NCBI GenBank assembly: GCA_903882935.1
Contig: CAIRZB010000098.1
Coordinates: forward strand, 1 to 64,000
DNA: 64,000 bases
Direction of reading: 5' to 3'
DNA from: an uncultured Parafilimonas sp.
GTDB taxonomy: Bacteria > Bacteroidota > Bacteroidia > Chitinophagales > Chitinophagaceae
The notes under the pieces are model-generated. The model was not told where the DNA came from. It searched no databases and worked only from the letters and a program-made list of their open reading frames with translations. This document shows, in pieces, positions 43,513 to 60,393 of the stretch (position 1 is the first letter of the stretch; each line of letters opens with the position of its first letter). Both the position numbers and the translations under genes were made by a program.

Positions 43513-45933
43513 ATGCTAAAAAACTACCTTAAAACAGCCATCCGTAACCTGTGGAAAAACAAAGGGTTTTCCGCTATTAATATATTTGGCCTGGCAATTG
43601 GCGTAGCAACCTGCCTGGTTATATTGCTGTATGTGGTGGATGAGCTGAGTTATGATAAATACAACCTGAAAGCCGAAAACATTTACCGGATTGACGAAGA
43701 GATTAAGTTTGGCGACAACCACTACGACGGCACTGATGCCCCCGCCCTTTTGGGGCCCGTATTTGCCAAAACATTTGCGCAAATTGTACAATTTACAAGG
43801 TTTAGGCAACGCGGCGGGCTAACCATAAAAAGGGGAGGCGAAAAGTTTAGGGAAGAAAAAGCTGTTTATGCCGACTCCACCTTGTTTGACGTATTTACCC
43901 TGCCATTTATTGACGGAGACCCAAAAACGGCACTAAAAAACCCGCATTCGCTGGTAATAACGGCCTCCACCGCCCTTAAGTACTTTAGCACCACCCACGC
44001 CGTTGGCAAAATACTACTGGTTAACGACAACACCTGTAAAATAACCGGCGTTATAAACGACATACCAACCCAATCGCACTTCAACTTCGACTTTTTTGTA
44101 CCGCTTTGCGAAGATGGCAACAGCAAAGGCGATAACTGGCTTAGCAACAATTACCAAACATACATTGTACTACGCCCAAGTACAAACACTGCCAGTATTG
44201 CCGCCACTTTTAATATTGAATTGGAGAAATATGTGGCACCTATTTTAAAAAGCGTTATAAACCTCGACATTAACGACTTTAAAAAAGGCGGCGGTTTTGT
44301 AAAGGTTAGCCTTATGCCCCTTACCAAAATACACCTGTACAGCAACAAAAAAGACGAGTTGGGCGTAAATGGCAATATTGAATACGTGTATATTTTTTCC
44401 GCCATCGCCATATTTATACTGCTGATAGCCTGCGTAAACTTTATGAACCTATCTACCGCCCGCTCCGCCAACCGCGCGAAAGAAGTTGGGGTACGCAAGG
44501 TATTAGGGTCGTTGCGCAAAAACCTAATCGGCCAGTTTTTAACTGAGTCGCTACTGATAAGCCTTATATCATTCGTATTGGCTATTGGCCTTTCATTCTT
44601 CATGTTGCGGCTATTTAACCAATTGGCGCAAAAGCAAATAAGCTGGCTGGCATTGTTTACCCCAGGCATGTTGTTTGCTATTTTGGCATTAATGGTGGTG
44701 GTAGGTTTTTTGGCAGGCAGCTACCCAGCGTTTTTCCTTTCCTCCTTCCAGCCGATTGAAGTATTGAAAGGCAGGCTGTCAAGGGGCTTCAAAGGCTCTA
44801 TCCTACGCAATGCCCTGGTGGTGTTCCAATTTGCCATCTCCATCATGCTTATGGTAGGCACCGCAGTTATCTATAACCAATTAAATTACATACGCAATAA
44901 AGATATTGGCTTTAGTAAAGACCAAATATTGGTTATACAAAATACCTACGCGCTAAACAACCAGCAAACAGCCTTTAGGAATGATATTTTGCAAATGACC
45001 GGCGTAAAAAATGCCACCTACACCGGCTATTTGCCTGTAACCGGCTGGCGTAACAACGATGCTATTTTCCCCACTACGGACCTAGACATAAAAAAAGCCA
45101 TTTCTGCCCAACAATGGGAGGTGGACGAGGATTATATAACTACCCTGCAAATGACCATGAAGCTGGGGCGGAACTTTTCAAAACAGTTCCTCTCTGACTC
45201 CAGCGCAGTTATTATCAACGAAGCGGCGGCCAAATTTTTAGGCACCCAAAACCCAGTTAACAAAACACTTTACCGCATCGACAACATAAAAACCAAAAAG
45301 CTAATCAAGTATAATATAATAGGCGTGGTAAAAAATTTCAATTTTACTACGCTTAAGGAGGAGGTTACCCCCTTGGCACTTTACTTGCACCAGAACTATG
45401 GCAGCATGGCCGTACGAATAAAAACGCAGGACATACCCAGCCTGTTAAGCCAAATTAAGGCCAAATGGCACGCCTTGGTGCCATCGCAGGCAGTTAGCTA
45501 TTCTTTTATGGATGAAGATTTTAACAAGCAGTACGAGGCCGAGCAGCGCACTGGCAACATCTCCATCACGTTTTCGGTGCTGGCTATCCTCATCGCCTGC
45601 CTGGGGCTATTTGGGTTGGTGACCTATGCGGCAGAACAGCGCATAAAGGAGATAGGCATACGCAAAGTACTTGGTGCCAACATTGCCAATATCATCAACA
45701 TGCTTTCCAAAGACTTTATAAAACTAGTGTTGGCGGCCATTATCATTGCCACCCCCATTGCTTGGTGGGTTATGCACCAATGGCTGCAAGACTTTGCCTA
45801 CCGTGTACAAATTTCGTGGTGGATATTCGCCATCGCCGGTTCCATGGCCCTACTAATTGCTTTGGCAACCGTTAGCCTACAGGCTGTTAAGGCAGCATTG
45901 AAAAACCCCGTAAAGAGTTTAAGAACGGAGTGA
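43513..45933 (+). CDS. FtsX-like ABC transporter permease, paralogue 1
   Basis: 806 residues. Layout of the long Bacteroidota FtsX/MacB-like permeases: an N-terminal membrane anchor after NYLKTAIRNLWKNKGFSAIN, a periplasmic MacB-like core domain, three FtsX membrane segments from about residue 290 (IFILLIACVNFMNLSTA), a second anchor and core domain from about 430, and a final FtsX set (GLFGLVTYAAEQRIKEIGIR), ending PVKSLRTE. The cognate ATPase is not in the window. It is the first of four relatives at 43.5, 46.4, 49.0 and 52.9 kb. Confidence 0.93.
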   Translation: MLKNYLKTAIRNLWKNKGFSAINIFGLAIGVATCLVILLYVVDELSYDKYNLKAENIYRIDEEIKFGDNHYDGTDAPALLGPVFAKTFAQIVQFTRFRQRGGLTIKRGGEKFREEKAVYADSTLFDVFTLPFIDGDPKTALKNPHSLVITASTALKYFSTTHAVGKILLVNDNTCKITGVINDIPTQSHFNFDFFVPLCEDGNSKGDNWLSNNYQTYIVLRPSTNTASIAATFNIELEKYVAPILKSVINLDINDFKKGGGFVKVSLMPLTKIHLYSNKKDELGVNGNIEYVYIFSAIAIFILLIACVNFMNLSTARSANRAKEVGVRKVLGSLRKNLIGQFLTESLLISLISFVLAIGLSFFMLRLFNQLAQKQISWLALFTPGMLFAILALMVVVGFLAGSYPAFFLSSFQPIEVLKGRLSRGFKGSILRNALVVFQFAISIMLMVGTAVIYNQLNYIRNKDIGFSKDQILVIQNTYALNNQQTAFRNDILQMTGVKNATYTGYLPVTGWRNNDAIFPTTDLDIKKAISAQQWEVDEDYITTLQMTMKLGRNFSKQFLSDSSAVIINEAAAKFLGTQNPVNKTLYRIDNIKTKKLIKYNIIGVVKNFNFTTLKEEVTPLALYLHQNYGSMAVRIKTQDIPSLLSQIKAKWHALVPSQAVSYSFMDEDFNKQYEAEQRTGNISITFSVLAILIACLGLFGLVTYAAEQRIKEIGIRKVLGANIANIINMLSKDFIKLVLAAIIIATPIAWWVMHQWLQDFAYRVQISWWIFAIAGSMALLIALATVSLQAVKAALKNPVKSLRTE

Positions 45934-46148
45934 GGCATACCCTTTCCCTTAATCCCTCCCCCTTTAAGGGCAAAGAGGTGGAGGAAAAGGACATTTATGT
46001 ATTAGGAACAGAGGTTTTGTGAAATGGCCCTGTTTATTGCTGAATTCCGGATTTAGCAATAAACAGTTGGCGCTGGCGCACCATGCACCCTTACATCCGC
46101 ACAACCATGAAACCTGAAACCATAACCTTGCAATCGGATTTCATATAC
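45934..46148. repeat. Repeats and hairpin after permease 1
   Basis: CCCTTTAAGGG (45960-45970) has the same core as the CCCTTTAGGG elements at 16009 and 17843. TGTTTATTGCT (46031-46041) and AGCAATAAACA (46055-46065) form a perfect 11-bp stem, possibly a transcription end for permease 1, though without a T-run. Confidence 0.55.
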
Positions 46149-46185
46149 GTACGATTTCGTACACGAAGTGTACGTTTTCGTACAC
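46149..46185 (+). promoter_or_regulatory. Two phased palindromic operators upstream of permease 2
   Basis: GTACGATTTCGTAC (46149-46162) and GTGTACGTTTTCGTACAC (46168-46185) are both perfect inverted repeats sharing GTACG and CGTAC. Their centres are 21 bp apart, two helical turns, as for tandem dimer sites. They lie 52-88 bp upstream of the sigma-54-like sequence at 46237. Confidence 0.6.
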
Positions 46186-46236
46186 CTCAATTAAGTGCTT
46201 TTACCTAACCCCTTTATTCACAATGCCTTCTGTGGT

Positions 46237-46252
46237 TGGCATACCCGTTGAA
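46237..46252 (+). promoter_or_regulatory. Possible sigma-54 promoter of permease 2
   Basis: TGGCATACCCGTTGAA matches the consensus TGGCACG-N4-TTGCW at TGGCA and TTG with correct spacing, but lacks the C of the -12 GC. The upstream paired palindromes would be in the position of an enhancer-binding site. Weak by itself. Confidence 0.35.
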
Positions 46253-46410
46253 AGGTTAATTGGGCATATTATGCCTGATACAAAACAACTGTGCCCAAGA
46301 AGCTATCGGTATTTGGGCGCAGGGAAAGTATCAACAGCAGAATTACCGCCTTGGCAGTAACCTTTAATAGCAAAAACAAGTATTGGGTTTGATAAACCAA
46401 AAAAACTTTT

Positions 46411-48783
46411 ATGATAAAAAATTACTTACTGGTTGCATTTAGAAATCTACGCAAAAACAAAACATTCTCGTTCATTAATATTTCCGGGCTGTCACTCGGT
46501 ATAGCCTGTAGCTTACTAATCATGTTGTGGGTAACGGATGAACGCAATATGGATAAATTTAATAAGGACGGCGACAGGATATACAGTATTTACGAGCGGC
46601 AGTATTACGATAATAAAATTGATGCATTCCACTCAACCCCTGGTGTGCTGCCCGAGGAAATTAAAAGGGTGATGCCCCAAGTGCAATACTCCAGCGGCTT
46701 TGCGTGGAACGAGGACAATACCTTTCAGGTTGGCAACAAGATAATGAAGGAAAAAGGTAACCACGCCAGTGCTGATTTTTTCAAAATATTCAGTTATACG
46801 CTGTTGCAGGGCAACGCCGCCACAGCACTCAACACACCGGCTACGATAGCCATTTCCCGTAAAATGGCCAACGATTTTTTTGGCAGCCCCCAGGCGGCCA
46901 TCAGCAAAACAGTACGGTTCGACAACCGGAAAAACTTTACCGTTAGCGCTGTTTTTGAAAACCCCGGCGAAAACATGTCGGCCAAGTTTGACTACATTAT
47001 CAATTGGCAGGCGTTTTTTGAAGACAATGAGTGGGCAAAGGAATGGGGTAACAATGGCCCCCAAACACTAATAACATTGAAAGCAGGCACCAACCCTGTT
47101 GACTTTGAAAAAAGCATCACCAAATTTTTGGATAAATACAATAAAGAACAAGGCAAAGGCTTTCATATTGAGCTTGGCATGCAGCGCTTTGACGACCAGT
47201 ACCTACACTCGCATTTTGATGCCCAGGGTAAGTTAGACGGCGGCCGAATTGAATATGTAAACCTGTTTAGCTTGGTGGCAGTATTTATACTGTTGATTGC
47301 CTGTATTAATTTTATGAACCTAACTACTGCCCGCTCGGTTAAGCGGGGTAAGGAAATTGGCATACGTAAAGTGGTTGGTGCTGTGCGCTTTGCTTTAATA
47401 CGCCAGTTTATTGGCGAAGCAATACTGCTAACGTTTTTGTCTGTTTTAGTGGCACTGCTGTTGGTAATTATACTATTGCCCTTGTTTAACGGGCTAACAC
47501 AAAAACAAATTTCTTTTCCTTTTGGTAACCCCATTTTTTGGGCCGCCATAGTGGGGTTAACCTTTTTAACAGGGCTGCTTGCAGGCAGCTACCCAGCCCT
47601 GTTTCTATCGTCATTCAACCCCATTGTAGTGCTAAAAGGGCTGCCCAAATTTAGTTCGGGCGTGGTGTGGTTCCGTAAGGGCTTGGTTATATTTCAATTT
47701 GTGCTGTCTATTGTACTTATCATCAGCACAATAGTGGTATCCAAACAAATAAATTATATACAAACAAAAAACTTGGGCTACGACAGGGAGAACCTTATTT
47801 ATGTTCCCTTGGAAGGCGACCTGCCAAAGCAATACACACTATTAAAACAACAGGCACTCAATAGCCCCGGTATAAAAAGCATCACCCGCATTTCGCAAAC
47901 GCCCACCCAAATACAAAACGGCACCTATGGCGTTGACTGGGATGGCAAGGATGCCAATTCAAAGCCGATGTTTACCAATGCTTCCGTTGGATACGATTTT
48001 ATTAAAACAATGAATATACAGCTGCTGCAGGGGCGCGATTTTTCGAAGGACTTCCCCACCGATTCTGTTGGTTACATTTTAAACGAGCAGGCGTTGGCCA
48101 AAGTGGGGTACAAAAACCCTTTGGGCAGGCGCATAAAATTTTGGGGCAAAAACGGCACCATCGTGGGTACCGTGAAGGACTTCCATTTTAACTCCCTAAA
48201 GGTGCCTGTTAATGCATTAATTATGCGCCTCGGGGAGACCGACGGGTATGGTAGCATGCTTATAAAAACACAGCCCGGCAAAACAAAGGAAGCGCTGGCA
48301 AGTATTGAGGCTTTGTGCCACCGCTTAAACCCAAAATTCCCTTTTACTTACCAGTTTTCTGATGAGGAATATAAGAAGCTGTATACCGATGAACAAATGG
48401 TGGGTACGCTGGCAAACTGTTTCGCATTCCTTGCCATATTTATATCCTGCTTAGGTTTATTGGGGCTGGCTATGTTTACGGCTGAGCAACGCAAGAAAGA
48501 AATCGGTATCCGCAAGGTACTTGGTGCCAGCACAGGGTCGCTGTTTAACCTTTTGTCAAAAGAATTTTTAACGCTGGTGATAACCGGTTTTGTAATAGCA
48601 TCGCCGCTGGCGTGGTACAGTATGAGCAAATGGCTGCAGGAATACACCTACCGTACTAGTTTAAGTTGGTGGATGTTTGTGGTAGCGGGGCTTACGGCTG
48701 TGTTAATAACGCTGCTTACCGTAAGCTTCCAAGCAGGCAAGGCGGCGTTAATGAACCCAGTGAAGAGCTTGAGGACGGAATAG
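46411..48783 (+). CDS. FtsX-like ABC transporter permease, paralogue 2
   Basis: 790 residues, same layout as paralogue 1: the start YLLVAFRNLRKNKTFSFINI, first FtsX unit VFILLIACINFMNLTTARSV near residue 290, second unit AIFISCLGLLGLAMFTAEQR near residue 675, and end NPVKSLRTE. Unlike the others it has a clear upstream regulatory region (paired palindromes and a sigma-54-like sequence), so it may be separately controlled. It is followed by a four-unit heptamer repeat and an inverted repeat. Confidence 0.93.
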   Translation: MIKNYLLVAFRNLRKNKTFSFINISGLSLGIACSLLIMLWVTDERNMDKFNKDGDRIYSIYERQYYDNKIDAFHSTPGVLPEEIKRVMPQVQYSSGFAWNEDNTFQVGNKIMKEKGNHASADFFKIFSYTLLQGNAATALNTPATIAISRKMANDFFGSPQAAISKTVRFDNRKNFTVSAVFENPGENMSAKFDYIINWQAFFEDNEWAKEWGNNGPQTLITLKAGTNPVDFEKSITKFLDKYNKEQGKGFHIELGMQRFDDQYLHSHFDAQGKLDGGRIEYVNLFSLVAVFILLIACINFMNLTTARSVKRGKEIGIRKVVGAVRFALIRQFIGEAILLTFLSVLVALLLVIILLPLFNGLTQKQISFPFGNPIFWAAIVGLTFLTGLLAGSYPALFLSSFNPIVVLKGLPKFSSGVVWFRKGLVIFQFVLSIVLIISTIVVSKQINYIQTKNLGYDRENLIYVPLEGDLPKQYTLLKQQALNSPGIKSITRISQTPTQIQNGTYGVDWDGKDANSKPMFTNASVGYDFIKTMNIQLLQGRDFSKDFPTDSVGYILNEQALAKVGYKNPLGRRIKFWGKNGTIVGTVKDFHFNSLKVPVNALIMRLGETDGYGSMLIKTQPGKTKEALASIEALCHRLNPKFPFTYQFSDEEYKKLYTDEQMVGTLANCFAFLAIFISCLGLLGLAMFTAEQRKKEIGIRKVLGASTGSLFNLLSKEFLTLVITGFVIASPLAWYSMSKWLQEYTYRTSLSWWMFVVAGLTAVLITLLTVSFQAGKAALMNPVKSLRTE

Positions 48784-48787
48784 GGGA

Positions 48788-48815
48788 GGTGAATCGTGAA
48801 TCGGCAAACGTGAAT
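48788..48815 (+). repeat. Four-unit CGTGAAW heptamer stub after permease 2
   Basis: GGTGAAT, CGTGAAT, CGGCAAA, CGTGAAT, starting 4 bases after the stop codon. Same unit as the long arrays at 56.6-57.8 kb, including the CGGCAAN variant. Confidence 0.75.
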
Positions 48816-48830
48816 GATGTTTTATGGATG

Positions 48831-48941
48831 GAACGCAGATTTTCAGGATTGAAAGGGATGCAAGCGATTTATTGTACAATTTCAATTACGCCCTCGCACC
48901 CTTATCTGCGGTAATCCCTAAAATCCATTCAATCTGCGTTC
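48831..48941. repeat. GAACGCAGATT inverted-repeat element
   Basis: GAACGCAGATT (48831-48841) and AATCTGCGTTC (48931-48941) are perfect 11-bp arms about 89 bp apart. The element at 52816-52900 has the same arms and a similar interior (TTATCTGC). A dispersed non-coding family. Confidence 0.7.
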
Positions 48942-49000
48942 AACAATTGGCGTACACATCGGCACAACTATAATCTATCCCGAAGGTATCCCTTTGGGCA

Positions 49001-49018
49001 AACTGAAAACTATAAACT
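49001..49018 (+). repeat. Leader AACTGAAAACTATAAACT before permease 3
   Basis: An identical 18-base copy at 52921-52938 precedes permease 4. Both end 6 bases before the ATG. This is either a shared 5' leader or a residue of duplication. Confidence 0.6.
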
Positions 49019-49024
49019 GAGGAT

Positions 49025-51388
49025 ATGTTAAAAAACTATTTTAAAGTTGCCTTGCGCAGTATGATGCGCCGCAAAGGATTTTCACTGCTGAACATAAGTG
49101 GGCTTGCTATTGGCATGGCCAGTGCCATGCTTATTTTGTTATGGGTGCAGAATGAAGTAGGCTACGACCGCTTTTACCCTAATGCCAACAGGCTGTACGT
49201 GGCATGGAACCGCGATAAATGGGGCGATGTATTAACTTGCTGGAGTACCACCCCAAAAGTGTTTGGCCCAGCCTTAAAGCATGAGTTTCCAGAAGTGGAA
49301 AAGGAAACGCGCGTTAATTGGAACCAAAACTTATTGTTTACCGTGGGTGAAAAACGCATTACCGTGCAGGGTACCATGGTTGACCCCGACTTTCTCACCA
49401 TGTTTAGCTTACCCATGGCAAACGGAGACGTAAATACGGCGCTAAATGGCCCAAGTTCTGTGGTACTTTCGCAAAAAATGGCGATTAGGCTGTTTGGCAG
49501 CGAAAACAATGCCCCCGGCAAAGTGGTAAAAATTGACAACAAGTATAATTTTACCGTAAGCGCCGTAATGAAGGATTTGCCTAACAACACCAATTTTCGT
49601 TTTGATTTTTTGCTGCCCTGGTCATACATGCGCTTAACAAATAATGATGACAGCACTTGGGGCAACAACAGCACCCGCAACTATATACTGCTAAAACAAA
49701 ATACAAACATTGACAATGTAAATGCCAAAATACAAAACTTCTCTATAAAGCACCAAGGGCAAGGTGCCACAACCCAAAATTTCCTATACCCTTTAAGCAA
49801 GATGCGTTTATACTCCGAATTTAAAAATGGCATACCCGTTGGCGGCCGCATTAATATTGTGCGGGTGTTTACTATTATCGCTATTTTTATTTTACTGATT
49901 GCCTGTATAAACTTTATGAACCTATCCACCGCGCGCAGTGAAAAACGCGCCAAGGAAGTTGGCATACGCAAAGTGGCGGGTGCGCTTAAACAAGGCCTTA
50001 TAGGCCAGTTTTTGGCAGAATCCATCCTTATTTCGTTTATTGCCGGGCTGGTGGCATTGGGTGTGGTGCAGCTTAGCCTGCATGGCTTCAACAACCTAAC
50101 AAGAAAGGAGCTTTTTATTAATTATGGCTCGGTGTATTTCTGGCTAGCATTCGTCGCCTTTATAACATTCACGGGCGTTCTGGCGGGCAGTTACCCAGCG
50201 TTTTTTCTATCATCCTTTAAGCCCGTAGCTGTGCTTAAAGGCACATTTAAAAAAGCACACGCCTTGGTTACGCCGCGCAAAATTTTAGTGGTATTGCAAT
50301 TTACGTTTGCCATTGCACTTATCATTTGTACCATCATCATTGAACAGCAATTAAAATATGGGCAAGACAGGGAAAACGGATACGACAAAAACAACCTGGT
50401 ATATGTGTTTATGACGGGTGATGTGGAAAAAAAATATACAACGATAAAAGAAGAACTTTTGCAAAAAGGCATTGCCACATCCATTAGCAAAACAAGCTCG
50501 CCCATTACAGAATCGTGGAGCAACACCTGGGGCATCGGCTGGCAGGGTAAGGCCGCCAACGACAAAACAATCATCAACCTGTTTTGCAGCGATGGCAATT
50601 TAGTACCCACCGCAGGCATGAAAATAATTGACGGCCGTGACATTGACCTAAAAAAATATCCCGGCGATTCTTTGTCGGCCGTAATTAACGAAACAACAGC
50701 AAAAATTATGAAATTTAAGCACCCCATAGGCCAGGTGCTTAACAACGACACCAATTATACGGTAGTGGGCGTGGTGAAGGATTTTATCATGGAATCGCCA
50801 TACGAGCCCATCAGGCCCATCGTTATTTTTGGCCCGCACATACAGTTTTTCAACACCATCCATATTAAGTTAAACAACCAAAAGACCACCGCACAAAACC
50901 TTGCGGATATGGAAAAAATATTTAAACAATATAACCCTCAGTACCCTTTTGACTACCATTTTGCCGATGACGAATATGCCCACAAATTTGAGGAAGAAAA
51001 ACTTACCGGCACCTTGGCAGCCTTGTTTGGGGGCCTCACAGTTTTTATCGCCTGTTTGGGCCTGTTTGGCCTGGCTTCGTATATGGCCGAGAACCGGATA
51101 AAAGAAATAGGTGTACGCAAAGTGTTAGGGGCCTCCGTGGGCAGCATTGCCACCCTACTATCCAAAGACTTTATAAAACTGGTTACCATAGCCATTGTGC
51201 TGGCAACGCCGGTGGCTTGGTGGCTTATGGACAAATGGCTGAAAGGCTACGAGTACCATACCGGCATTAGTTGGGTGGTGTTTGCCGCATCCGGCATATT
51301 GGCCGTTGCCATTGCTATTTGCACGGTTAGCTTCCAGGCCATTAAAGCGGCTGTGGCTAACCCAGTGACGAGTTTGCGGACGGAATGA
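49025..51388 (+). CDS. FtsX-like ABC transporter permease, paralogue 3
   Basis: 787 residues, same two-unit FtsX layout: YFKVALRSMMRRKGFSLLNI, IFILLIACINFMNLSTARSE near residue 290, VFIACLGLFGLASYMAENR near residue 675, end NPVTSLRTE. It lies 241 bp after paralogue 2; the spacer holds the heptamer stub, the GAACGCAGATT element and the leader shared with paralogue 4. No ATPase gene is adjacent. Confidence 0.93.
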   Translation: MLKNYFKVALRSMMRRKGFSLLNISGLAIGMASAMLILLWVQNEVGYDRFYPNANRLYVAWNRDKWGDVLTCWSTTPKVFGPALKHEFPEVEKETRVNWNQNLLFTVGEKRITVQGTMVDPDFLTMFSLPMANGDVNTALNGPSSVVLSQKMAIRLFGSENNAPGKVVKIDNKYNFTVSAVMKDLPNNTNFRFDFLLPWSYMRLTNNDDSTWGNNSTRNYILLKQNTNIDNVNAKIQNFSIKHQGQGATTQNFLYPLSKMRLYSEFKNGIPVGGRINIVRVFTIIAIFILLIACINFMNLSTARSEKRAKEVGIRKVAGALKQGLIGQFLAESILISFIAGLVALGVVQLSLHGFNNLTRKELFINYGSVYFWLAFVAFITFTGVLAGSYPAFFLSSFKPVAVLKGTFKKAHALVTPRKILVVLQFTFAIALIICTIIIEQQLKYGQDRENGYDKNNLVYVFMTGDVEKKYTTIKEELLQKGIATSISKTSSPITESWSNTWGIGWQGKAANDKTIINLFCSDGNLVPTAGMKIIDGRDIDLKKYPGDSLSAVINETTAKIMKFKHPIGQVLNNDTNYTVVGVVKDFIMESPYEPIRPIVIFGPHIQFFNTIHIKLNNQKTTAQNLADMEKIFKQYNPQYPFDYHFADDEYAHKFEEEKLTGTLAALFGGLTVFIACLGLFGLASYMAENRIKEIGVRKVLGASVGSIATLLSKDFIKLVTIAIVLATPVAWWLMDKWLKGYEYHTGISWVVFAASGILAVAIAICTVSFQAIKAAVANPVTSLRTE

Positions 51389-51392
51389 CCTA

Positions 51393-51420
51393 CGTGAATC
51401 GTGAAACGTCAATCGTGAAT
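51393..51420 (+). repeat. Four-unit CGTGAAW heptamer stub after permease 3
   Basis: CGTGAAT, CGTGAAA, CGTCAAT, CGTGAAT, starting 4 bases after the stop codon. The IS3 target duplication CTT follows at once (51421-51423), so the IS inserted against the end of a heptamer array. Confidence 0.8.
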
Positions 51421-51453
51421 CTTTGTGTGTGCCTAAAATAGGTTGACAAAAAA

Positions 51454-51881
51454 ATGTCACTTATGAGGCATGAAAGTAAGAAAAAGTTCGAAGTCCGTGA
51501 GCGCCGTGTATTCTCTGAGGAGTTGAAGAAAAAGGTGGTGAAAGACTTGGTGGGCAAGCGTACGACTGTGACGAAGTTGATGGCCGAACACCAAGTCAGC
51601 GCGCAGACAGTCTACCGTTGGCTGTACAAGTATTCCCCGTATCATGAGCAAAAGTGTACTTTAGTAGTACAGATGAAAAGCGAGGAAGCCAAGAACCAAG
51701 ATTTGCAGGCCGGATAGCTGAACTTGAGCGGGCCGTGGGCAAAAAGCAGCTTGAGATAGATTTTTTGAACAGGCTTTTAGAGGTGGGTAGCTCGGAGTTG
51801 GGGTTTGACCTAAAAAAAAATTTCAGCACGCCACCGTCGAATGGTACAGGTTCCACAAGCAAAAACACGGGTACAAAATGA
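51454..51881 (+). pseudogene. IS3 orfA, helix-turn-helix protein, split by a frameshift
   Basis: The N-terminal part (51454-51717) has the helix-turn-helix LMAEHQVSAQTVYRWLYKY. Its frame ends at TAG just after KNQDLQAG. The normal coiled-coil end of IS3 OrfA (RIAELERAVGKKQLEIDFLN) is in the -1 frame and runs to 51881. Joining at GCC|CGG restores DLQARIAELER, so one C appears missing at about 51710-51714. No A-rich slippery heptamer is at that point, so a disabling deletion (or assembly error) is more likely than programmed frameshifting. Confidence 0.7.
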
Positions 51882-52774
51882 ACGATGTTTTTGCGTTGTG
51901 CGGCATAAGCCGGCAGGCGCACCACCAATCTGTGCAGAGGCATGTAGAGGAAGGGCAGAATGCGGAGTTGTATGTGCGGATGATGGAACAGGTAAGGGAG
52001 ATACACCCGGGCATGGGCATACGCACTATGTACGAGATGCTCAGGCCGGAAGGCATAGGCAGGGATGCATTTGTGGCACTGGGCCTGCAGGAGGGCTTCA
52101 GGCTGAAGAGTATTGAGAAGAGCACGAGGACTACCTACAGCATCAAGTCCAGCCGTTACGGCAACTTGCTGGGCGGCATGGGGTTTACAGGTATAAACCA
52201 GGTGTGGAGCAGCGACATCACTTACCTGTACTGCCTGGACCAGTTCTTTTACATAGTATTGATAATGGATGTTTACTCAAGGAGGGTCGTGGGTTACAGC
52301 CTTGCCGGTAATATGAGGGCAGAAAACAACCTTTCTGCCCTCAGGATGGCATTGGCATTGAGGGGTGTGGGCAATTACAACGGAAGCCTCATACACCACT
52401 CTGACAAAGGCACCCAGTATGCAGCCAATGACTACACAGACCTGCTTGGGGACTATGGGATACGCATAAGCATGTGCGACGAAGTGTATGAGAACACACA
52501 CATAGAAAGGCTTAACGACACTATCAAAAACCAATATCTCAACAGGATGGAGATCAACAACAGGCAGCAGCTTGAAAAAAAGCTGCATGCAGCCATAAAG
52601 GCTTATAACGAGGAGAGGCCGCCCCAGAGCATAAACAAGAATACGCCTGTTGAATATGAAAAACACTTGTTGGGGATCGAAACAGACAAACGCAACAAAA
52701 TGACAATATACACCATCAAAAATGATGAAAGGATATCGCAGCCAACGCAGTTAAATTTGTTTGATATTAATTAA
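51878..52774 (+). CDS. IS3 orfB, DDE transposase
   Basis: 298 residues. The integrase-type catalytic core has D in NQVWSSDITYLYCLDQFFY, D in LIHHSDKGTQYAANDY and E in EVYENTHIERLNDTIK, and a C-terminal NKNTPVEYEKHL. ATG at 51878 overlaps the orfA stop (ATGA). In IS3 elements OrfA and OrfB are normally joined by -1 frameshifting to make the active transposase; orfB looks intact, but orfA is broken. Confidence 0.92.
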   Translation: MNDVFALCGISRQAHHQSVQRHVEEGQNAELYVRMMEQVREIHPGMGIRTMYEMLRPEGIGRDAFVALGLQEGFRLKSIEKSTRTTYSIKSSRYGNLLGGMGFTGINQVWSSDITYLYCLDQFFYIVLIMDVYSRRVVGYSLAGNMRAENNLSALRMALALRGVGNYNGSLIHHSDKGTQYAANDYTDLLGDYGIRISMCDEVYENTHIERLNDTIKNQYLNRMEINNRQQLEKKLHAAIKAYNEERPPQSINKNTPVEYEKHLLGIETDKRNKMTIYTIKNDERISQPTQLNLFDIN

Positions 52775-52815
52775 AAAACATGTCAACCTATTTTAGGCAC
52801 ACACACTTGTTGATG

Positions 52816-52900
52816 GAACGCAGATTGTTAGGATGGCCTGGATGAATGAGATTTTCTTATTTATCTGCAATTATCTTGAAAACCCTAACAATCTGCGTTC
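52816..52900. repeat. GAACGCAGATTGTTAGG inverted-repeat element
   Basis: GAACGCAGATTGTTAGG (52816-52832) and CCTAACAATCTGCGTTC (52884-52900) are perfect 17-bp arms with a 51-bp interior containing TTATCTGC. Same family as 48831-48941. A copy of the 18-base leader AACTGAAAACTATAAACT follows at 52921-52938. Confidence 0.75.
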
Positions 52901-52944
52901 TATCATCCGCACAAACTGAAAACTGAAAACTATAAACTATTAAT

Positions 52945-55398
52945 ATGTTTAAAAACTATCTTATCGTAGCACTCAGAAACTTTTGGCGCAACAAAGTGTT
53001 TTCGCTGATTAACATTATTGGCCTCGCCATCGGCATTAGCGCATCATTGGTTATCTTTCTATTGGTGTCGTACGATTTTAATTTTGATAAGTTTCATAAA
53101 GACGGGGAAAGGATTTACCGTGTTGTTTCCGACTTTACATTTGGTGGTGAAGCATACCATAACTCCGGGGTATGTGCACCGTTGGCGGCAGCGGTAAAAA
53201 AAGAAGTAACAGGTGTTGACATTGTTGCCCCTTTTTATGAATGGGATGACAACCTAAAAGTAACCGTGCCTTACCCCGATGCAGGCAAGCCGGTTGTCAT
53301 AAAAAAACAAAAGGATGCCATTTTTGCCGACGAAAATTATTTTAACCTGGTTGGGTATACGTGGGTAGCAGGCTCGCCAAAAACAGCCCTCAACCAACCA
53401 TACCAGTTGGTGCTTACAGAGAGCAGGGCAAAATTGTACTTTCCCAACCTTGCCCCGGCACAGGCAGTTGGTAAACAGGTAAGGTTTAATGATACCGTGC
53501 AAACAACTGTAACAGGTATCGTAAAAGACATTCAAGAAAATACCGACTTTACGTTCAAGGCGTTTGTATCATTCGCCACACTTAAATCAAAAAGGTTTGG
53601 CTTGATGGATTGGGATGAATGGGGCAACACCAACGGCGCTTCGCAGTTGTTTGTAAAAACGTCCATCGGCACAACACCTGCGCAGTTAACGCGCAAACTC
53701 AACAAACTATTTGAGGTTCACCATACGCCCGACCCCGAAGACCACAGCACTACAAGCTTTGCATTACAGCCACTGGCTGATTTGCACTTTAATGAAGTGT
53801 ATGAAGGTTATGAGGGTGGGCATTTAGCTCATAAGCCTACCTTATACGGCTTGTTGGCCGTCGCAGCATTTCTGTTGCTGTTGGCATGCATTAACTTTAT
53901 AAATCTTACCACCGCACAGGCATCGCAGCGCGCCAAGGAAATTGGCATACGCAAAACCATGGGCAGCACCAAACAACAACTTGCCTCGCAATTTTTAAGC
54001 GAAACATTTTTGTTAACCCTCATTGCTGGTTTACTATCCATTGCATTAACACCTTTACTGCTAAAAGTATTTGCCGATTTTGTTCCAGAAGGGCTGCATT
54101 TTAACTTGGCAAAACAGCCTGGCATTATATTGTTCCTGATTGGGCTAATTGTAACGGTAACTTTATTATCAGGTTTTTACCCGGCACTCATGCTTTCATC
54201 ATACAACCCAGTATTGGTGTTAAAAAACCATACATTCAGCAATGCAGGTAAAACCCGCTCGGCTTGGCTGCGCAAATCATTAACCGTATCGCAGTTTGTA
54301 ATAGCACAGGTGTTTATTATTGCAACCATATTGGTGGGCAAGCAAATAAGTTTTTCGCTCAATAAAGACCTCGGTTTTAGAAAAGATGCCGTACTCTATT
54401 TTAGCACCAATTATTACGATACCCTAAAAACCCACCAATCGGTATTGCTGCAACAATTAAGAACCATACCAGAAGTTGCCATGGTAAGCGTGGCAAACAA
54501 CCCACCATCCAGCAACAGCACTTGGAGCAGCACCATGAAATATAAAGACGGCAAAAAAAACATTGAAACAGATGTGCAGGTAAAAATTGCTGACAGCAAT
54601 TATATTGGTTTGTATAAAATAAAATTACTGGCTGGCACCAACCTTAGCAATTGCGACACCACCAATTCCGTAATCATCAACGAAACATATTTGCATATTT
54701 TAGGCTTTAAAAACCCACAGCAGGCCTTAAACAAACAAATAGATTGGGATAAGAAAAAAACCATTGTTGGTGTGGTGGCCGACTTTCACCAAAAATCGTT
54801 GCACGAATTGATAAAACCATTGGTAATTGCCAATGGCAACAAAAGGTCTAGGTCAATTAACATAGCCCTGCAACCGCAAAATGCAGAAGGCACCGTATGG
54901 AAAACAGGCATCAGCAAAATTGAAAAAACGTTTAAAAGCATTTACCCGGAAGATGATTTTGATTACCACTTTATAGACGATGCCATAGCAAAGTATTACA
55001 CTGCCGAAAAAAACATCTCCAGCCTGTTAATGTGGGCCACGGGGCTTGCCATATTCATCAGCTGCCTTGGTTTGCTGGGGCTAGTGATTTATGTTACCAA
55101 CCAACGCACTAAGGAAATTGGCATACGCAAAGTAGTGGGTGCAACTGTTACACAGATAGTTACCTTGCTGAGCAAAGATTTTTTGGCACTCATTGCCTTG
55201 GCTTTTGTAATTGCAGTACCCATTGCCTGGCTGGGCGCCAACAAATGGCTGGAAGGTTTTGCCTATAAAACAGCACTGGCTTGGTGGGTATTTGCATCTG
55301 GCGGCGCAACCATGCTAGTGCTTGCATTTGTGGTAATGTTGATAAGAACTTTCCGCGCGGCCACGGCCAACCCGGTGGAGAGTTTGCGGACGGAGTAG
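52945..55398 (+). CDS. FtsX-like ABC transporter permease, paralogue 4
   Basis: 817 residues. Same family and layout: YLIVALRNFWRNKVFSLINI at the start, LLLLACINFINLTTAQASQR near residue 310, IFISCLGLLGLVIYVTNQR near residue 700, end NPVESLRTE. It lies downstream of the IS3 element, which separates it from paralogue 3, so it relies on its own promoter or on read-through from the IS. Confidence 0.93.
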   Translation: MFKNYLIVALRNFWRNKVFSLINIIGLAIGISASLVIFLLVSYDFNFDKFHKDGERIYRVVSDFTFGGEAYHNSGVCAPLAAAVKKEVTGVDIVAPFYEWDDNLKVTVPYPDAGKPVVIKKQKDAIFADENYFNLVGYTWVAGSPKTALNQPYQLVLTESRAKLYFPNLAPAQAVGKQVRFNDTVQTTVTGIVKDIQENTDFTFKAFVSFATLKSKRFGLMDWDEWGNTNGASQLFVKTSIGTTPAQLTRKLNKLFEVHHTPDPEDHSTTSFALQPLADLHFNEVYEGYEGGHLAHKPTLYGLLAVAAFLLLLACINFINLTTAQASQRAKEIGIRKTMGSTKQQLASQFLSETFLLTLIAGLLSIALTPLLLKVFADFVPEGLHFNLAKQPGIILFLIGLIVTVTLLSGFYPALMLSSYNPVLVLKNHTFSNAGKTRSAWLRKSLTVSQFVIAQVFIIATILVGKQISFSLNKDLGFRKDAVLYFSTNYYDTLKTHQSVLLQQLRTIPEVAMVSVANNPPSSNSTWSSTMKYKDGKKNIETDVQVKIADSNYIGLYKIKLLAGTNLSNCDTTNSVIINETYLHILGFKNPQQALNKQIDWDKKKTIVGVVADFHQKSLHELIKPLVIANGNKRSRSINIALQPQNAEGTVWKTGISKIEKTFKSIYPEDDFDYHFIDDAIAKYYTAEKNISSLLMWATGLAIFISCLGLLGLVIYVTNQRTKEIGIRKVVGATVTQIVTLLSKDFLALIALAFVIAVPIAWLGANKWLEGFAYKTALAWWVFASGGATMLVLAFVVMLIRTFRAATANPVESLRTE

Positions 55399-55768: not shown

Positions 55769-56578
55769 ATGGAAAAAAAACTTCAAAACCAAGTAGCTAT
55801 TATTACAGGTGCCAGCAGCGGTATTGGCGCAGGTGTGGCAAAAAGCCTTGCAGCATCGGGTGCCACTGTGGTAATTAACCACCCCGTGGCCGCAACAAAA
55901 GCACCCGCTGATGAGGTGCTGAATGAAGTTATTGCCGCGGGTGGCCAAGGCATAACCTACCAGTGCGATGTAAGCAAAGAAAGCGAGGTAGTGACCATGT
56001 TTGCCGATGTGGTAAAACAATTTGGCACCGTGGATATTTTGGTAAACAACGCAGGCCTGCAAAGAGATGCACCGTTTGACCAAATGACCTTGGAGCAATG
56101 GAATTTTGTAATTGGCGTAAACCTTACCGGGCAGTTTTTATGTGCCCGCGAAGCCATAAAAGAATACTTGCGGCGTGGCGTTGACCTAACCAGAAGCAAA
56201 GCCGCCGGCAAAATAATACACATGAGCAGCGTACACGAAGTAATACCCTGGGCCGGCCACGCCAACTACGCAGCCAGCAAAGGCGGTATTATGCTGATGA
56301 TGAAAAGCATTGCGCAGGAGTATGCACACAAAAAAATACGCATCAACAGCATTTGCCCCGGGGCTATACAAACCCCCATTAACAGGCAGGCATGGGACAC
56401 GCCCGAAGCCATGGACGCATTACTTACCCTTATACCCTACAAACGGATAGGCCAGCCCGAAGATATTGGCAACGCGGCAGTTTGGCTTGCCAGCGACGAC
56501 AGTGACTATGTGAACGGCATCTCCCTATTTGTTGACGGCGGCATGACGCTGTACCCTGGGTTTACGACGAATGGATGA
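55769..56578 (+). CDS. SDR-family NAD(P)-dependent oxidoreductase (glucose 1-dehydrogenase-like)
   Basis: 269-residue classical short-chain dehydrogenase. The cofactor loop is ITGASSGIGAGVA (TGxxxGxG, about 13-25), the NNAG motif is in DILVNNAGLQRDA, catalytic Ser is in HMSSVHEV, and Tyr and Lys are in NYAASKGG. The end SLFVDGGMTLYPGF is typical of glucose 1-dehydrogenase-like members. Substrate unproven. It ends 4 bp before the 42-unit heptamer array; the SDR, four-helix-bundle and glucosidase genes share one strand. Confidence 0.93.
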   Translation: MEKKLQNQVAIITGASSGIGAGVAKSLAASGATVVINHPVAATKAPADEVLNEVIAAGGQGITYQCDVSKESEVVTMFADVVKQFGTVDILVNNAGLQRDAPFDQMTLEQWNFVIGVNLTGQFLCAREAIKEYLRRGVDLTRSKAAGKIIHMSSVHEVIPWAGHANYAASKGGIMLMMKSIAQEYAHKKIRINSICPGAIQTPINRQAWDTPEAMDALLTLIPYKRIGQPEDIGNAAVWLASDDSDYVNGISLFVDGGMTLYPGFTTNG

Positions 56579-56582
56579 TGGA

Positions 56583-56876
56583 CGTGAAACGTGAATCGTG
56601 AAACGGCAATCGTGAAACGTGAATCGTGAAACGTGAAACGTGAATCGTGAAACGGCAATCGTGAATCGTGAATCGTGAATCGTGAATCGTGAAACGTGAA
56701 ACGTGAAACGTGAAACGTGAATCGTGAATCGTGAATCGTGAATCGTGAAACGTGAAACGTGAAACGTGAAACGTGAATCGTGAATCGTGAAACGTGAATC
56801 GTGAATCGTGAATCGTGAAACGTGAATCGTGAATCGTGAAACGTGAATCGTGAATCGTGAAACGTGAAACGTGAAT
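56583..56876 (+). repeat. Array of exactly 42 heptamers, CGTGAA(A/T)
   Basis: Unbroken run of 294 bp made of CGTGAAA and CGTGAAT in irregular order, with CGGCAAT at a few places. It begins 4 bp after the SDR stop. Since 7 is not a multiple of 3, the opposite strand has a long stop-free frame whose translation repeats FTIHVSR-like units; this is not a gene. Paired with the inverted array at 56939. Confidence 0.95.
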
Positions 56877-56938
56877 AAATACATGCGAGTTTTATGTTTT
56901 ACTAATTACGTTGTCGCTAATAATTGACGTTTGACGAC

Positions 56939-57026
56939 ATTCACGATTCACGTTTCACGATTCACGACATTCACGTTTCACGTTTCACGATATTCACGTT
57001 TCACGACAATCACCCTATTCACGTTT
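56939..57026 (-). repeat. Inverted heptamer array upstream of the four-helix-bundle gene
   Basis: ATTCACG and TTTCACG units (reverse complement of CGTGAAW), with some 9-base variants such as ACATTCACG and ATATTCACG. It can pair with part of the 42-unit array across a 62-bp AT-rich spacer (56877-56938). It ends 12 bp before the ATG at 57038. Confidence 0.9.
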
Positions 57027-57037
57027 AAAACAAGCCT

Positions 57038-57391
57038 ATGTTTTTGCAGTTAAATCACCAGCAACTAGATGTGTATAAAATTTCTCGGGCTTTTGTAAAA
57101 GACTGTTATTCAGCCAGTAAGTTATTGCCACCAGATGAACGGTTTAATTTAATCCAGCAAATTAGGCGTGCAGCATTATCGGTACATCTTAATATTGCGG
57201 AAGGTTCATCAAGGAAGTCAGAACAAGAGAGAAAAAGATACTACGAAATAGCAAGGGGCTCTATTATTGAAATTGACGCAGCTTTTGACGTTTCAGCCGA
57301 TCTTGAATATGTACAAAAGGAACAATTAACAAGCACGGGTGAAAATATGCAAAGATGCTTCTCCAAGCTTTCAAAAATGATAAACCTTTAA
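57038..57391 (+). CDS. Four-helix-bundle protein (S23 / 23S-rRNA-intervening-sequence family)
   Basis: 117 residues. Family signature: LDVYKISRAFVKDCYSASKL, then NLIQQIRRAALSVHLNIAEG (the conserved helix with N-I-A-E-G) and RKRYYEIARGSIIEIDA. The family includes proteins encoded in 23S rRNA insertions and the Avd accessory protein of diversity-generating retroelements; the function of stand-alone copies is unknown. No reverse transcriptase or rRNA is nearby. The gene is framed on both sides by pairs of inverted heptamer arrays, and the array after it begins on the base next to its TAA. Confidence 0.92.
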   Translation: MFLQLNHQQLDVYKISRAFVKDCYSASKLLPPDERFNLIQQIRRAALSVHLNIAEGSSRKSEQERKRYYEIARGSIIEIDAAFDVSADLEYVQKEQLTSTGENMQRCFSKLSKMINL

Positions 57392-57568
57392 CGGGAGACG
57401 GGAATCGTGAAACGAGAATCGTGAATCGTGAATCGTGAAACGAGAATCGTGAAACGAGAATCGGGGAACGAGAATCGTGAATCGTGAATCGTGAAACGTG
57501 AAACGTGAATATCGGGAAACGGCAATCGTGAAACGAGAATCGGGAAACGAGAATCGGGAATCGTGAAT
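57392..57568 (+). repeat. Second heptamer array, 25 units plus AT
   Basis: 17 heptamers (57392-57510), AT, then 8 heptamers to 57568. Units are CGTGAAW, CGAGAAT, CGGGAAW and CGGCAAT, more varied than the first array. It begins immediately after the stop codon of the four-helix-bundle gene. It is opposed by the inverted array at 57619 across a 50-bp AT-rich spacer. Confidence 0.93.
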
Positions 57569-57618
57569 AAAATAAACAAGAATTTTTTCGTTCATATTTA
57601 GCAAAAGACCTAGGGCGG

Positions 57619-57783
57619 TTTCACGATATTTACGACATTCACGTTTCAGGTTATTCACGTTTCACGATATTCACGTTTCACGTTTCACGATATTCACGTT
57701 TCACGATTCACGATTCTCGTTTCACGATATTCACGTTTCACGTTTCACGCTTCACGATATTCACGAAATTCACGTTTCACGAT
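57619..57783 (-). repeat. Inverted heptamer array ending at the glucosidase start codon
   Basis: TTTCACG, ATTCACG and ATTCTCG units alternate with 9-base units ATATTCACG and ACATTCACG. The last unit is TTTCACG followed by AT and then the ATG at 57784, so it occupies the whole place of promoter and ribosome-binding site. Confidence 0.93.
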
Positions 57784-60393
57784 ATGAACGAACAACAACG
57801 CTTACAAAACCCGGCCTGGAAAAAATGGGGCCCTTACGTGTCAGACAGGCAGTGGGGCACGGTTAGGGAAGATTATAGCCCCGGTGGCAACGCATGGGGA
57901 AGCACCACCCACGACATGGCACGCAGCAAGGCCTGGCGCTGGGGCGAGGAAGGTATTGCCGGCATTTGCGATGAAAAGCAACTGCTGTGCTTTGCCATTG
58001 CCCTGTGGAACAAAAAAGACCCGATTATTAAAGAACGGTATTTTGGCCTAACTGGCGCGGAGGGCAACCATGGGGAAGATGTAAAGGAGCTGTACTACTA
58101 TTTAGACAGCACGCCAACCCACAGCTACATGAAGATGCTGTACAAATACCCGCAGGCGGCTTACCCGTACCAATGGCTGATTGAGGAAAACAAGCGGCGC
58201 AACAGGCTACAGCCTGAATTTGAAATAATTGACACCGGCATATTTAACGATAACAGCTATTTTGACGTATTTACAGAATATGCAAAAGCCGCCGACGATG
58301 ACCTATTGATAAAAATAACAGTGCACAACCGTGGCTTTGAGGATGCATCCGTTCATGTGCTGCCCACCGTTTGGTTCCGCAACACCTGGGCTTGGGGATA
58401 TGATGATTACAAGCCCTCTATCATGTCGTCAAACAATGGAAACGTCGTTATCAACCACCGTGACCTTGGCAGCTATACAATACACCTTGACACGGCCGCC
58501 CCAACACTGTTTTGCGACAACGAAACCAATAACGAAAGGTTATACGGCACAAAAAATGTGTCAGCCCATCCAAAAGATGCAATAAACGACTACCTAGTTA
58601 ACCACAACACAAAAGCGGTTAATATTTACGCGGCAGGCACAAAGGCGGCCATAAACTATGATGTTACCGTAAAAGCCGGGCAGAGCGTAACCATACGGCT
58701 AAGGATGGAAAAAACAAATTTGCAGCACCCTTTTGAGGATTTTGATGCCATCTTCAACAGCCGGTTGCAAGAGGCGGACGAGTTTTATAATGCCCTGCAA
58801 AAAGACATAAAAACCGACGATGAAAAACTAGTACAACGCCAAGCCTATGCGGGTATGCTTTGGAGCAAGCAGTTTTATTATTACGATATTCAGCAATGGC
58901 TCGACGGCGATCCCGCCCAACCTAAGCCGTCCGCCCAACGCAAAGATGCCCGCAACGGCAAATGGATGCACCTCAACAACGCCGATGTTATATCCATGCC
59001 CGATAAATGGGAATACCCTTGGTACGCCGCTTGGGACTTAGCATTTCATTGTATTTCTTTTGCCACCATTGACCCAGCCTTTGCAAAAAACCAGCTATGC
59101 CTGTTAACTAAGGAATGGTACATGCACCCCAACGGCCAACTACCCGCTTACGAATGGTCGTTCAGCGACGTAAACCCACCCGTGCATGCGTGGTCTACCT
59201 GGCGTGTGTATGAGATGGAAAAAAAATCAACCGGCGGTGGTGGCGATATTGCTTTTCTTGAATCAGTGTTCCACAAATTGCTAATAAACTTTACCTGGTG
59301 GGTAAACCGTAAAGACGCAGAGGGCAATAATATTTTTGAAGGAGGCTTTTTGGGCTTGGATAATATCGGCGTGTTCGACCGCAGTGCACCACTGCCCACA
59401 GGCGGCCACCTAGAGCAGGCCGACGGTACCAGTTGGATGGCTATGTACAGCTTGCACATGATGAAAATAGCCTTGGAACTGGCCTGCTACAATCCGGTTT
59501 ACCAAGACCTAGCGACTAAATTTTTTGAGCACTTCCTGTACATTGCAGGTGCCATGGCCAATATGGGTACGGATGATAACGGGCTTTGGGATGAAACGGA
59601 CCAGTTTTTTTACGATGCCCTACGTATGCCCGATGGCAGGGGCCAAAAACTGCGCGTACGCAGTATGGTTGGACTAATACCCTTGTTTGCGGTGGAAGTA
59701 TTGGAACATGACTTACTGACCAAACTACCCGAATTTGCAGAACGCCTTACCTGGTTTTTAAACAACCGCCCAGACCTGGCAAGCATGGTGAGCCGTTGGC
59801 AAGAAAAAGGTGGTGGAGAAACCCATTTGCTAAGCCTGCTGCGCGGCCACCGCATGAAAAAGCTGCTGTTGCGCATGTTAGACGAAAAAGAGTTTTTAAG
59901 TGAATACGGCATAAGAGCCTTATCGAAATTCCATCACGACCATCCATTTGAAATGTGGGTAAATGGCACAAAATTTTCCGTTAACTATACACCCGGGGAA
60001 AGCGACACTGGCCTTTTTGGCGGCAACAGTAACTGGCGCGGCCCCATTTGGATGCCGGTAAATTACCTATTAGTCGAAAGCCTGCAACGCTTCCATTACT
60101 ATTATGGCGAAGAATTTAAAGTGGAATGCCCCACGGGTAGCGGCCAATACCTTACCCTTAACGCCATTGCCGACTTTATCTCAACCCGTTTAAAGAATCT
60201 TTTTTTAGTCAACAATAATGGGGAGCGGCCAGTGTTAAACGGCTATGGTAAAATGCAGCATGATGAACATTTTAAAAATTATGTATTGTTTTACGAATAC
60301 TTTCATGGCGATACTGGGGCGGGCGTTGGCGCATCCCACCAAACTGGGTGGACGGGGTTGATTGCCAAATTATTGTTGCCTAGGGAAGTGTAG
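57784..60393 (+). CDS. GH63/MGH1-like glycoside hydrolase (glucosidase)
   Basis: 869-residue (alpha/alpha)6-barrel glycosidase of the mannosylglycerate-hydrolase/GH63 type, without signal peptide. Seen: WGTVREDYSPGGNAWG near the start, KWEYPWYAAWDLAFHCIS, GQLPAYEWSFSDVNPPVHAW (acid/base region), EQADGTSWMAMYSLHMMKIA, and SNWRGPIWMPVNYLLVE. It probably hydrolyses a glucoside or a compatible-solute ester in the cytoplasm. The start ATG abuts a heptamer array and no Shine-Dalgarno is visible; an internal start is unlikely because the first 20 residues fit the family. Confidence 0.92.
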   Translation: MNEQQRLQNPAWKKWGPYVSDRQWGTVREDYSPGGNAWGSTTHDMARSKAWRWGEEGIAGICDEKQLLCFAIALWNKKDPIIKERYFGLTGAEGNHGEDVKELYYYLDSTPTHSYMKMLYKYPQAAYPYQWLIEENKRRNRLQPEFEIIDTGIFNDNSYFDVFTEYAKAADDDLLIKITVHNRGFEDASVHVLPTVWFRNTWAWGYDDYKPSIMSSNNGNVVINHRDLGSYTIHLDTAAPTLFCDNETNNERLYGTKNVSAHPKDAINDYLVNHNTKAVNIYAAGTKAAINYDVTVKAGQSVTIRLRMEKTNLQHPFEDFDAIFNSRLQEADEFYNALQKDIKTDDEKLVQRQAYAGMLWSKQFYYYDIQQWLDGDPAQPKPSAQRKDARNGKWMHLNNADVISMPDKWEYPWYAAWDLAFHCISFATIDPAFAKNQLCLLTKEWYMHPNGQLPAYEWSFSDVNPPVHAWSTWRVYEMEKKSTGGGGDIAFLESVFHKLLINFTWWVNRKDAEGNNIFEGGFLGLDNIGVFDRSAPLPTGGHLEQADGTSWMAMYSLHMMKIALELACYNPVYQDLATKFFEHFLYIAGAMANMGTDDNGLWDETDQFFYDALRMPDGRGQKLRVRSMVGLIPLFAVEVLEHDLLTKLPEFAERLTWFLNNRPDLASMVSRWQEKGGGETHLLSLLRGHRMKKLLLRMLDEKEFLSEYGIRALSKFHHDHPFEMWVNGTKFSVNYTPGESDTGLFGGNSNWRGPIWMPVNYLLVESLQRFHYYYGEEFKVECPTGSGQYLTLNAIADFISTRLKNLFLVNNNGERPVLNGYGKMQHDEHFKNYVLFYEYFHGDTGAGVGASHQTGWTGLIAKLLLPREV

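Follow-up and report, generated by a model that had tools for sequence, protein, structure and literature searches.

S23 four-helix-bundle genes lie between inverted heptamer arrays whose word is matched to the protein: a probable repeat-binding system in bacteria

Why should a small four-helix-bundle gene sit exactly between long inverted arrays of a 7-base repeat? The question is raised by positions 56583-57783 of the DNA analysed here, a stretch of 64,000 nucleotides that we call the window. To our knowledge, there is no common view of how the heptameric repeats described in cyanobacteria, Xanthomonas, Beggiatoaceae and Bacteroidota arose, and the S23/IVS proteins, to which the product of this gene belongs, have hitherto had no assigned function. 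The pairing of S23 genes with heptamers makes both problems testable, as a predicted target is written beside each S23 gene.

The coordinates and the layout of the block (array, inverted array, gene, array, inverted array), as given by the first-pass annotation, were borne out by the sequence and by TRF. Four base pairs after the stop codon of an SDR oxidoreductase gene (55769-56578, plus strand, PF13561), a forward array on the plus strand (56583-56876; TRF, 42.0 copies) spans 294 bp, which is exactly 42 units, 40 of them CGTGAAW and two CGGCAAT. An AT-rich spacer (56877-56938) leads to an inverted array on the minus strand (56939-57026), in which 10 exact units stand at irregular spacings of 7, 16 and 23 bp. 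The S23/23S_rRNA_IVP gene itself (57038-57391, plus strand; PF05635, E=3.4e-28; TIGR02436) encodes 117 amino acids. Its stop codon TAA occupies 57389-57391 and the next array (57392-57568, plus strand) starts on the very next base. This third array had been annotated as about 25 CGTGAAW units; the position held but the identity of the units did not, since the array is a mixture with just 12 exact CGTGAAW and a remainder of mostly CGAGAAW or CGGGAAW. After a second AT-rich spacer (57569-57618), an inverted array with 17 exact units (57619-57783, minus strand) reaches the ATG at 57784 of an MGH1-like glycoside hydrolase gene (57784-60393, plus strand, PF22422). Both neighbouring genes lie outside the unit and served as site markers. 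Outside the block, the window has just 12 CGTGAAW and a single tandem pair, and the block arrays are thus far from chance. At the same site in the closest relative (L066/L277), a protein 83% identical to that of the window is flanked by about four units per side in the order array, gene, inverted array. The doubled layout, though present in the window, is a local elaboration, and the general unit is array-gene-inverted array. Elsewhere in the window, a tandem repeat of about 149 bp in 4.5 copies (4735-5405) is unrelated to the heptamers, and four successive plus-strand ORFs of about 790-820 amino acids (43513-55398) end with an FtsX/MacB-type ADOP permease (52945-55398).

The window protein scored 98.4 bits against PF05635 over residues 8-111, compared with a curated cut-off of 33.8 bits. 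Its AF2 model (pLDDT 97.2) is a four-helix bundle, which Foldseek aligned with 2gsc (XCC0516 of Xanthomonas) at a TM of 0.87-0.92 and with 2rld (BT_0352) at 0.80-0.84; Avd (4dwl) was a more distant match at 0.75. PF05635 was the sole family matched when the gene between the arrays was searched with profiles, with no HUH/TnpA_REP transposase, and no nuclease or transposase was identified for the element. The homologue XCC0516 forms a toroidal homopentamer (PMC4990558).

The window block exemplifies a general rule, by which S23 (PF05635) genes are flanked on either side by mutually inverted arrays whose unit has 7, sometimes 8, bases. Among 79 relatives from Chitinophagaceae and other Bacteroidota, self-similarity at lag 7 was scored over 300 bp on each side of the gene with a threshold of at least 22/42. 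The signal was found upstream in 82% and downstream in 88%, as compared with 7% of 1774 more distant tiles; other lags mostly gave 0-9%, and the lag-7 signal ended at 300 bp from the gene. A larger set of 184 loci from many genera, scored by the same criterion, had lag 7 in 84% and on both sides in 51%, whereas the other non-harmonic lags reached 5-18% and 0-8%, respectively (lag 14 is a harmonic). The best lag was 7 in 132 loci, 14 in 22 and 8 in 18, and about 16% of the 184 loci had no array at this threshold. Where arrays stood on both sides they were inverted in 115 of 121 loci, with a motif similarity of 0.86 against 0.36 in direct orientation and 0.50 for an other-locus null. In this set, arrays most often had four units per side; those upstream of the gene stopped at a median distance of 54 bp from the start codon, and those downstream set in at a median of 9 nt from the stop codon's first base. 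Of 30 loci sampled across Bacteroidota, 13 had period 7 and 8 had period 8, with other lags near zero. The same anatomy was found in 17 of 24 S23 loci on viral contigs, and on plasmids of cyanobacteria (Nostoc, Calothrix and Stanieria among them), Azospirillum, Gemmatirosa and others. The phage records searched gave no match. Arrays are thus not placed at random with respect to S23 genes; random placement was one of two outcomes that the first-pass annotation had named as counting against its proposal. The lag-7 excess recurs in the 79- and 184-locus sets, the Bacteroidota-wide sample and the viral contigs.

Several loci in these sets deserve mention in their own right. Three cyanobacterial plasmid S23 genes (L297, L303, L296) lie in CRISPR operons, in the cmr2/cmr3 gap or the cas6/cas4 gap, or between ribonucleotide reductase genes. 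The S23 proteins of viral-contig loci L353-L355 and L394-L396, the closest to XCC0516 among the loci compared, are 58% identical to it and have the upstream array ATTGGGN (GGGNATT), one base off the GGGNATC reported in Xanthomonas (PMC4692102). Internal stops mark several S23 copies (G026:C109, G007:C1:3832733, G031 and others) that look like decaying genes, and at least one of these, G007:C1:3832733 (L333), still has its arrays.

Is the block a separable unit? The SDR and MGH1-like neighbours allowed the site to be compared among genera, at a divergence of the flanks too great for target-site duplications to be read. In a genome of the same genus (G002), the S23 block is present at this site and its arrays are short. 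G005 has a gene-less GTGAAT array, G012 a mini-element of a different family (AAAAGTA...TTTTACT), and G007 neither. The S23-free genomes G020 and G016 have plain gaps of 154 and 75 bp, so that a site lacking the block exists between the same gene neighbours, at the level of the genus and not of the strain. The second outcome that the first-pass annotation had named against its proposal, a failure to find any such empty site, did not occur at that level. Some S23 genes recur at one site: an argC-argD site was found in L033, L037, L039, L051, L065 and L385, and a hemB-hemL site in L068, L070, L073 and L076, the neighbour names being read off translated flanks without a database search. Occupation of the same sites across genera suggests that the gene itself seldom jumps. 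RAYT genes, too, persist at certain sites over long times.

Arrays are found away from S23 genes as well. The genome of the window has CGTGAAW arrays at about 18 more places that lack an S23 gene, most of them immediately behind a stop codon or ahead of a start codon; one at C3:57008 (L001), of the CGTGAAW family, lies by eye in an apparent coding context, unlike the others. None of the other S23 genes of this genome adjoins CGTGAAW. At least two of them have visibly distinct 7-base words, ATGGACY on C42 and an AGCNNTR-like word on C89, and ATGGACY occurs elsewhere too (C43, C114). These differing words suggested a rule of one word per S23 gene. We searched 61 genomes with GTSAATNGTSAATNGTSAAT for GTSAAT arrays, defining a window-type protein by at least 45% identity. 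All 13 genomes with such a protein had the arrays, compared with 10 of the 48 others (p=1.7e-7; two of these ten just 63-72% complete), and they were missing from all 12 genomes that lack S23 genes altogether (p=0.002). The maximum was 607+700 exact matches in G006, and a reversed-pattern control gave zero except in G005 (1) and G030 (9 and 25).

Several families can share a genome. Within 300 kb of G006 we found four period-7 families, GTSAATN, TAAGTNN, TAAGGNN and AAAAGTC, and by eye an 8-mer family. The four S23 genes of G006 carry GTSAATN, TAAGTNN, AAAAGTC and the 8-mer AAATGTGN, and all four of these families are dispersed on one contig. TAAGGNN is dispersed without an S23 gene of that motif and has possibly lost its partner. 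The units vary only at defined positions, some fixed and some free, and array clusters follow a forward-then-reverse order in 20 of 22 cases. Facing intergenic arrays on contig C6 (L309-L323) are usually of different families, for example GTSAATN against TAAGTNN; GTSAATN never faces itself on this contig outside the S23 locus, and no gene-less forward-reverse pair of a single family was found in the 300 kb. On the same contig, GGCTGTTT/AAACAGCC was seen 43 times in 300 kb, where about 9 would be expected, and 20 of these copies lie no more than 40 bp from a heptamer array. At a strict threshold, 400 kb of G007, which has 14 S23 matches, gave 17 period-7 and 8 period-8 arrays, while 400 kb of the S23-free G020 gave zero. 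The dispersed arrays of G007 are closer to its own S23 motifs than to those of other genomes (0.747 versus 0.560, 0/100).

Similar proteins have similar words. Over 96 loci, protein identity was correlated with motif similarity (Mantel r=0.722, 0/2000 permutations). We rejected common descent at a single site as the sole cause, since dropping 372 pairs with common neighbour genes lowered r only from 0.72 to 0.69. The length of the unit also tracks the protein: in 11 of 16 cases a period-8 protein has another period-8 protein as its nearest relative, with 10% expected. The window clade has the word RTSARTN, and within it individual residues go with individual positions of the motif. We quantified this on a tree built without the tested columns, with 199 column tests each and p-values uncorrected. 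Lys113 (window numbering) goes with C at position 7, with both present in 12 loci, 2 and 0 discordant and neither in 42; residue and base change together four times, each time on a shared branch, with p=1.3e-5, which stays significant after correction for 199 tests (about 0.003). Gln110 goes with A at position 1 (5/0/0/51, p=0.00017) and is borderline after correction (about 0.03). Thr instead of Gln at residue 8 goes with G instead of A at position 5 (18/1/0/37, p=0.0005) and fails the strict correction (about 0.1). The window protein combines Gln8 and Lys113 with the word CGTGAAW, in agreement with this pattern, and is predicted to read CGTGAAW through its C-terminal helix (Lys113) and its N-terminus (Gln8). 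To judge from these sequence comparisons, each S23 subfamily has its own word, which for the window subfamily is CGTGAAW, and the S23 protein probably reads the word that flanks it.

Inverted arrays around a gene invite an explanation by pairing. S23p ORFs are known from intervening sequences (IVSs) of 23S rRNA in Coxiella, Leptospira and Brucella. By analogy with these homologues, the inverted arrays could pair in the transcript and loop out the S23 gene for cutting by RNase III, much as in the Coxiella IVS, where GACAGAT heptamers precede the S23p ORF and RNase III excises the element (PMC4990558). The right-hand array pair of the window does fold very stably as RNA (z=-14), but the hairpin proposed in the first-pass annotation does not hold as a general feature. 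The order of variants is unmatched between the left and right arrays (p=0.09), the mixed-family facing arrays of G006 cannot pair, and many arrays are one-sided. Moreover, the 64-kb window contains no rRNA match, and the block, between the SDR and MGH1-like genes, is outside any 23S rRNA gene. We rejected hairpin pairing as the conserved function on the variant order and the G006 arrays, and an IVS-like RNA element is improbable. Conservation applies to the single unit, in which some positions are fixed and others free, and to the fit between unit and protein, not to the pairing of one side with the other. The Avd-like fold (TM 0.75) would allow a different RNA route, in which the protein is an accessory to a retroelement, reverse transcriptase acts in trans and the arrays spread through RNA. 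RVT_1 (PF00078) was found neither in the genome of the window, which is 99.4% complete, nor in the array-rich G006, G023, G028, G029 and G030; a reverse-transcriptase partner is thereby largely refuted in these genomes and was rejected, leaving this route very improbable indeed. Neither hairpin pairing nor a reverse transcriptase seems to be required.

A role in host regulation is harder to set aside. The S23 protein could regulate by binding RNA, at arrays in untranslated regions that are purine-rich behind stop codons and pyrimidine-rich ahead of start codons, with dispersal reflecting recruitment of targets rather than selfish spread. The arrays do hug stop and start codons, and in 107 of 120 loci the array upstream of the gene is purine-rich and the downstream one pyrimidine-rich; translational regulation has been proposed for TAACTGA repeats near start codons (MacGregor 2015, PMC4679880). 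However, the forward-left, reverse-right rule is symmetric and follows equally from the geometry of an element, the array family at a given site changes from genus to genus, and the functions of the neighbours look unrelated. We consider regulation unlikely. The arrays might also be ordinary slippage microsatellites, or quadruplex repeats lying by chance near a gene. Array length does vary, from 42 units in the window to 4 in L066, and quadruplex formation was offered for four-unit GGGAATC arrays (Rehm 2015, PMC4692102). Yet the same four-unit preference is seen in words without G-tracts, for which the quadruplex explanation is insufficient. Variation limited to defined positions of the unit, and a single gene family in several phyla with a word per protein and residue-motif covariation, likewise argue against both. 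The lag-7 statistics of the 79 and 184 loci and the Mantel correlation led us to reject chance or simple slippage, to which we give almost no credence.

The explanation that we favour, and consider likely, is a repeat-binding S23 pentamer with dispersed sites, a widespread protein-plus-repeat class with a logic like that of RAYT/REPIN and unrelated to it. The S23 protein would recognise its own 7-nt unit. Since XCC0516 is a toroidal pentamer (PMC4990558), the simplest model has one unit per subunit, and about 4-5 tandem units would then form one binding site of the predicted pentamer. Tolerance of 7 or 8 nt would fit a single-stranded target more easily than one face of duplex DNA. The gene would be kept between two inverted copies of the predicted site, with gene-less copies of the same array scattered at gene boundaries of the same genome. 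S23 genes would persist at certain sites while the arrays spread, with the protein as the putative driver of their spread or maintenance, and gene and arrays together would behave like a system of dispersed repeats, selfish or domesticated, that has a protein partner; the system may be selfish, domesticated or regulatory in nature. The claim of the first-pass annotation, which saw in gene and arrays either a single unit or a repeat-binding protein among its sites, gains support from the association of S23 genes with arrays and from the genera without the block.

A more far-reaching proposal, on which we are evenly divided, is that S23 proteins are sequence-specific nucleic-acid readers in which each subunit of a pentamer takes one 7- or 8-nt word by a residue-to-base code, and that with their dispersed arrays they make up an unrecognised cross-phylum class of elements that explains most bacterial heptameric repeats, the rRNA IVSs being a special case. 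If the covariation between residues and bases reflects binding, S23 would be a new module for the recognition of specific sequences, and the elements would be a new dispersed class that shapes intergenic DNA in many phyla. The long-puzzling 7-base repeats of bacteria would probably gain a protein partner if S23 reads the word, and the pairing with S23 offers an alternative to the quadruplex account of the four-unit preference.

How does the system compare with those already known? With REPIN-RAYT it shares a protein gene flanked by a repeat that is dispersed gene-less in the genome, persistent gene sites and an intergenic location. It differs in its S23 four-helix bundle without HUH nuclease, in tandem words of 7-8 nt in place of palindromic REPs, and in having several families per genome. 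Avd of diversity-generating retroelements has the same fold (4dwl, TM 0.75), whereas the genome of the window lacks RVT_1. Unlike in a DNA-transposon MITE, the sides of the block share the motif and not the variant order (p=0.09), with no near-exact terminal inverted repeats. Parallels also come from published heptamers. GGGNATC arrays in Xanthomonas and GGGGAYT arrays in Nostoc show a four-unit preference, inverted pairs and a position near stop or start codons, and quadruplexes were proposed for them (Rehm et al. 2015, PMC4692102); TAACTGA arrays were described with 'no mechanism evident' (MacGregor 2015, PMC4679880). These and the cyanobacterial STRR resemble the present arrays in the 7-nt unit, about four units, paired inverted copies and proximity to stop or start codons, and differ in that the descriptions in those two papers name no S23 partner, where here each word has a cognate gene. 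In the Coxiella 23S IVS, which was called a selfish element, the S23p ORF is preceded by tandem GACAGAT heptamers that vary between strains (Warrier et al. 2016, PMC4990558). This IVS has both an S23 homologue and heptamers beside the ORF, whereas the present elements are intergenic and outside rRNA genes, include many gene-less arrays and do not conserve the pairing of their sides. By this comparison, the repeats of Xanthomonas, Nostoc, Beggiatoaceae and the Coxiella IVS all fit a protein-plus-repeat reading. The open-access literature yielded no paper tying S23 genes to heptamer arrays in general, and against that literature we rate the protein-repeat system as categorically new, built of known parts, with the rRNA IVSs looking like a special case of it.
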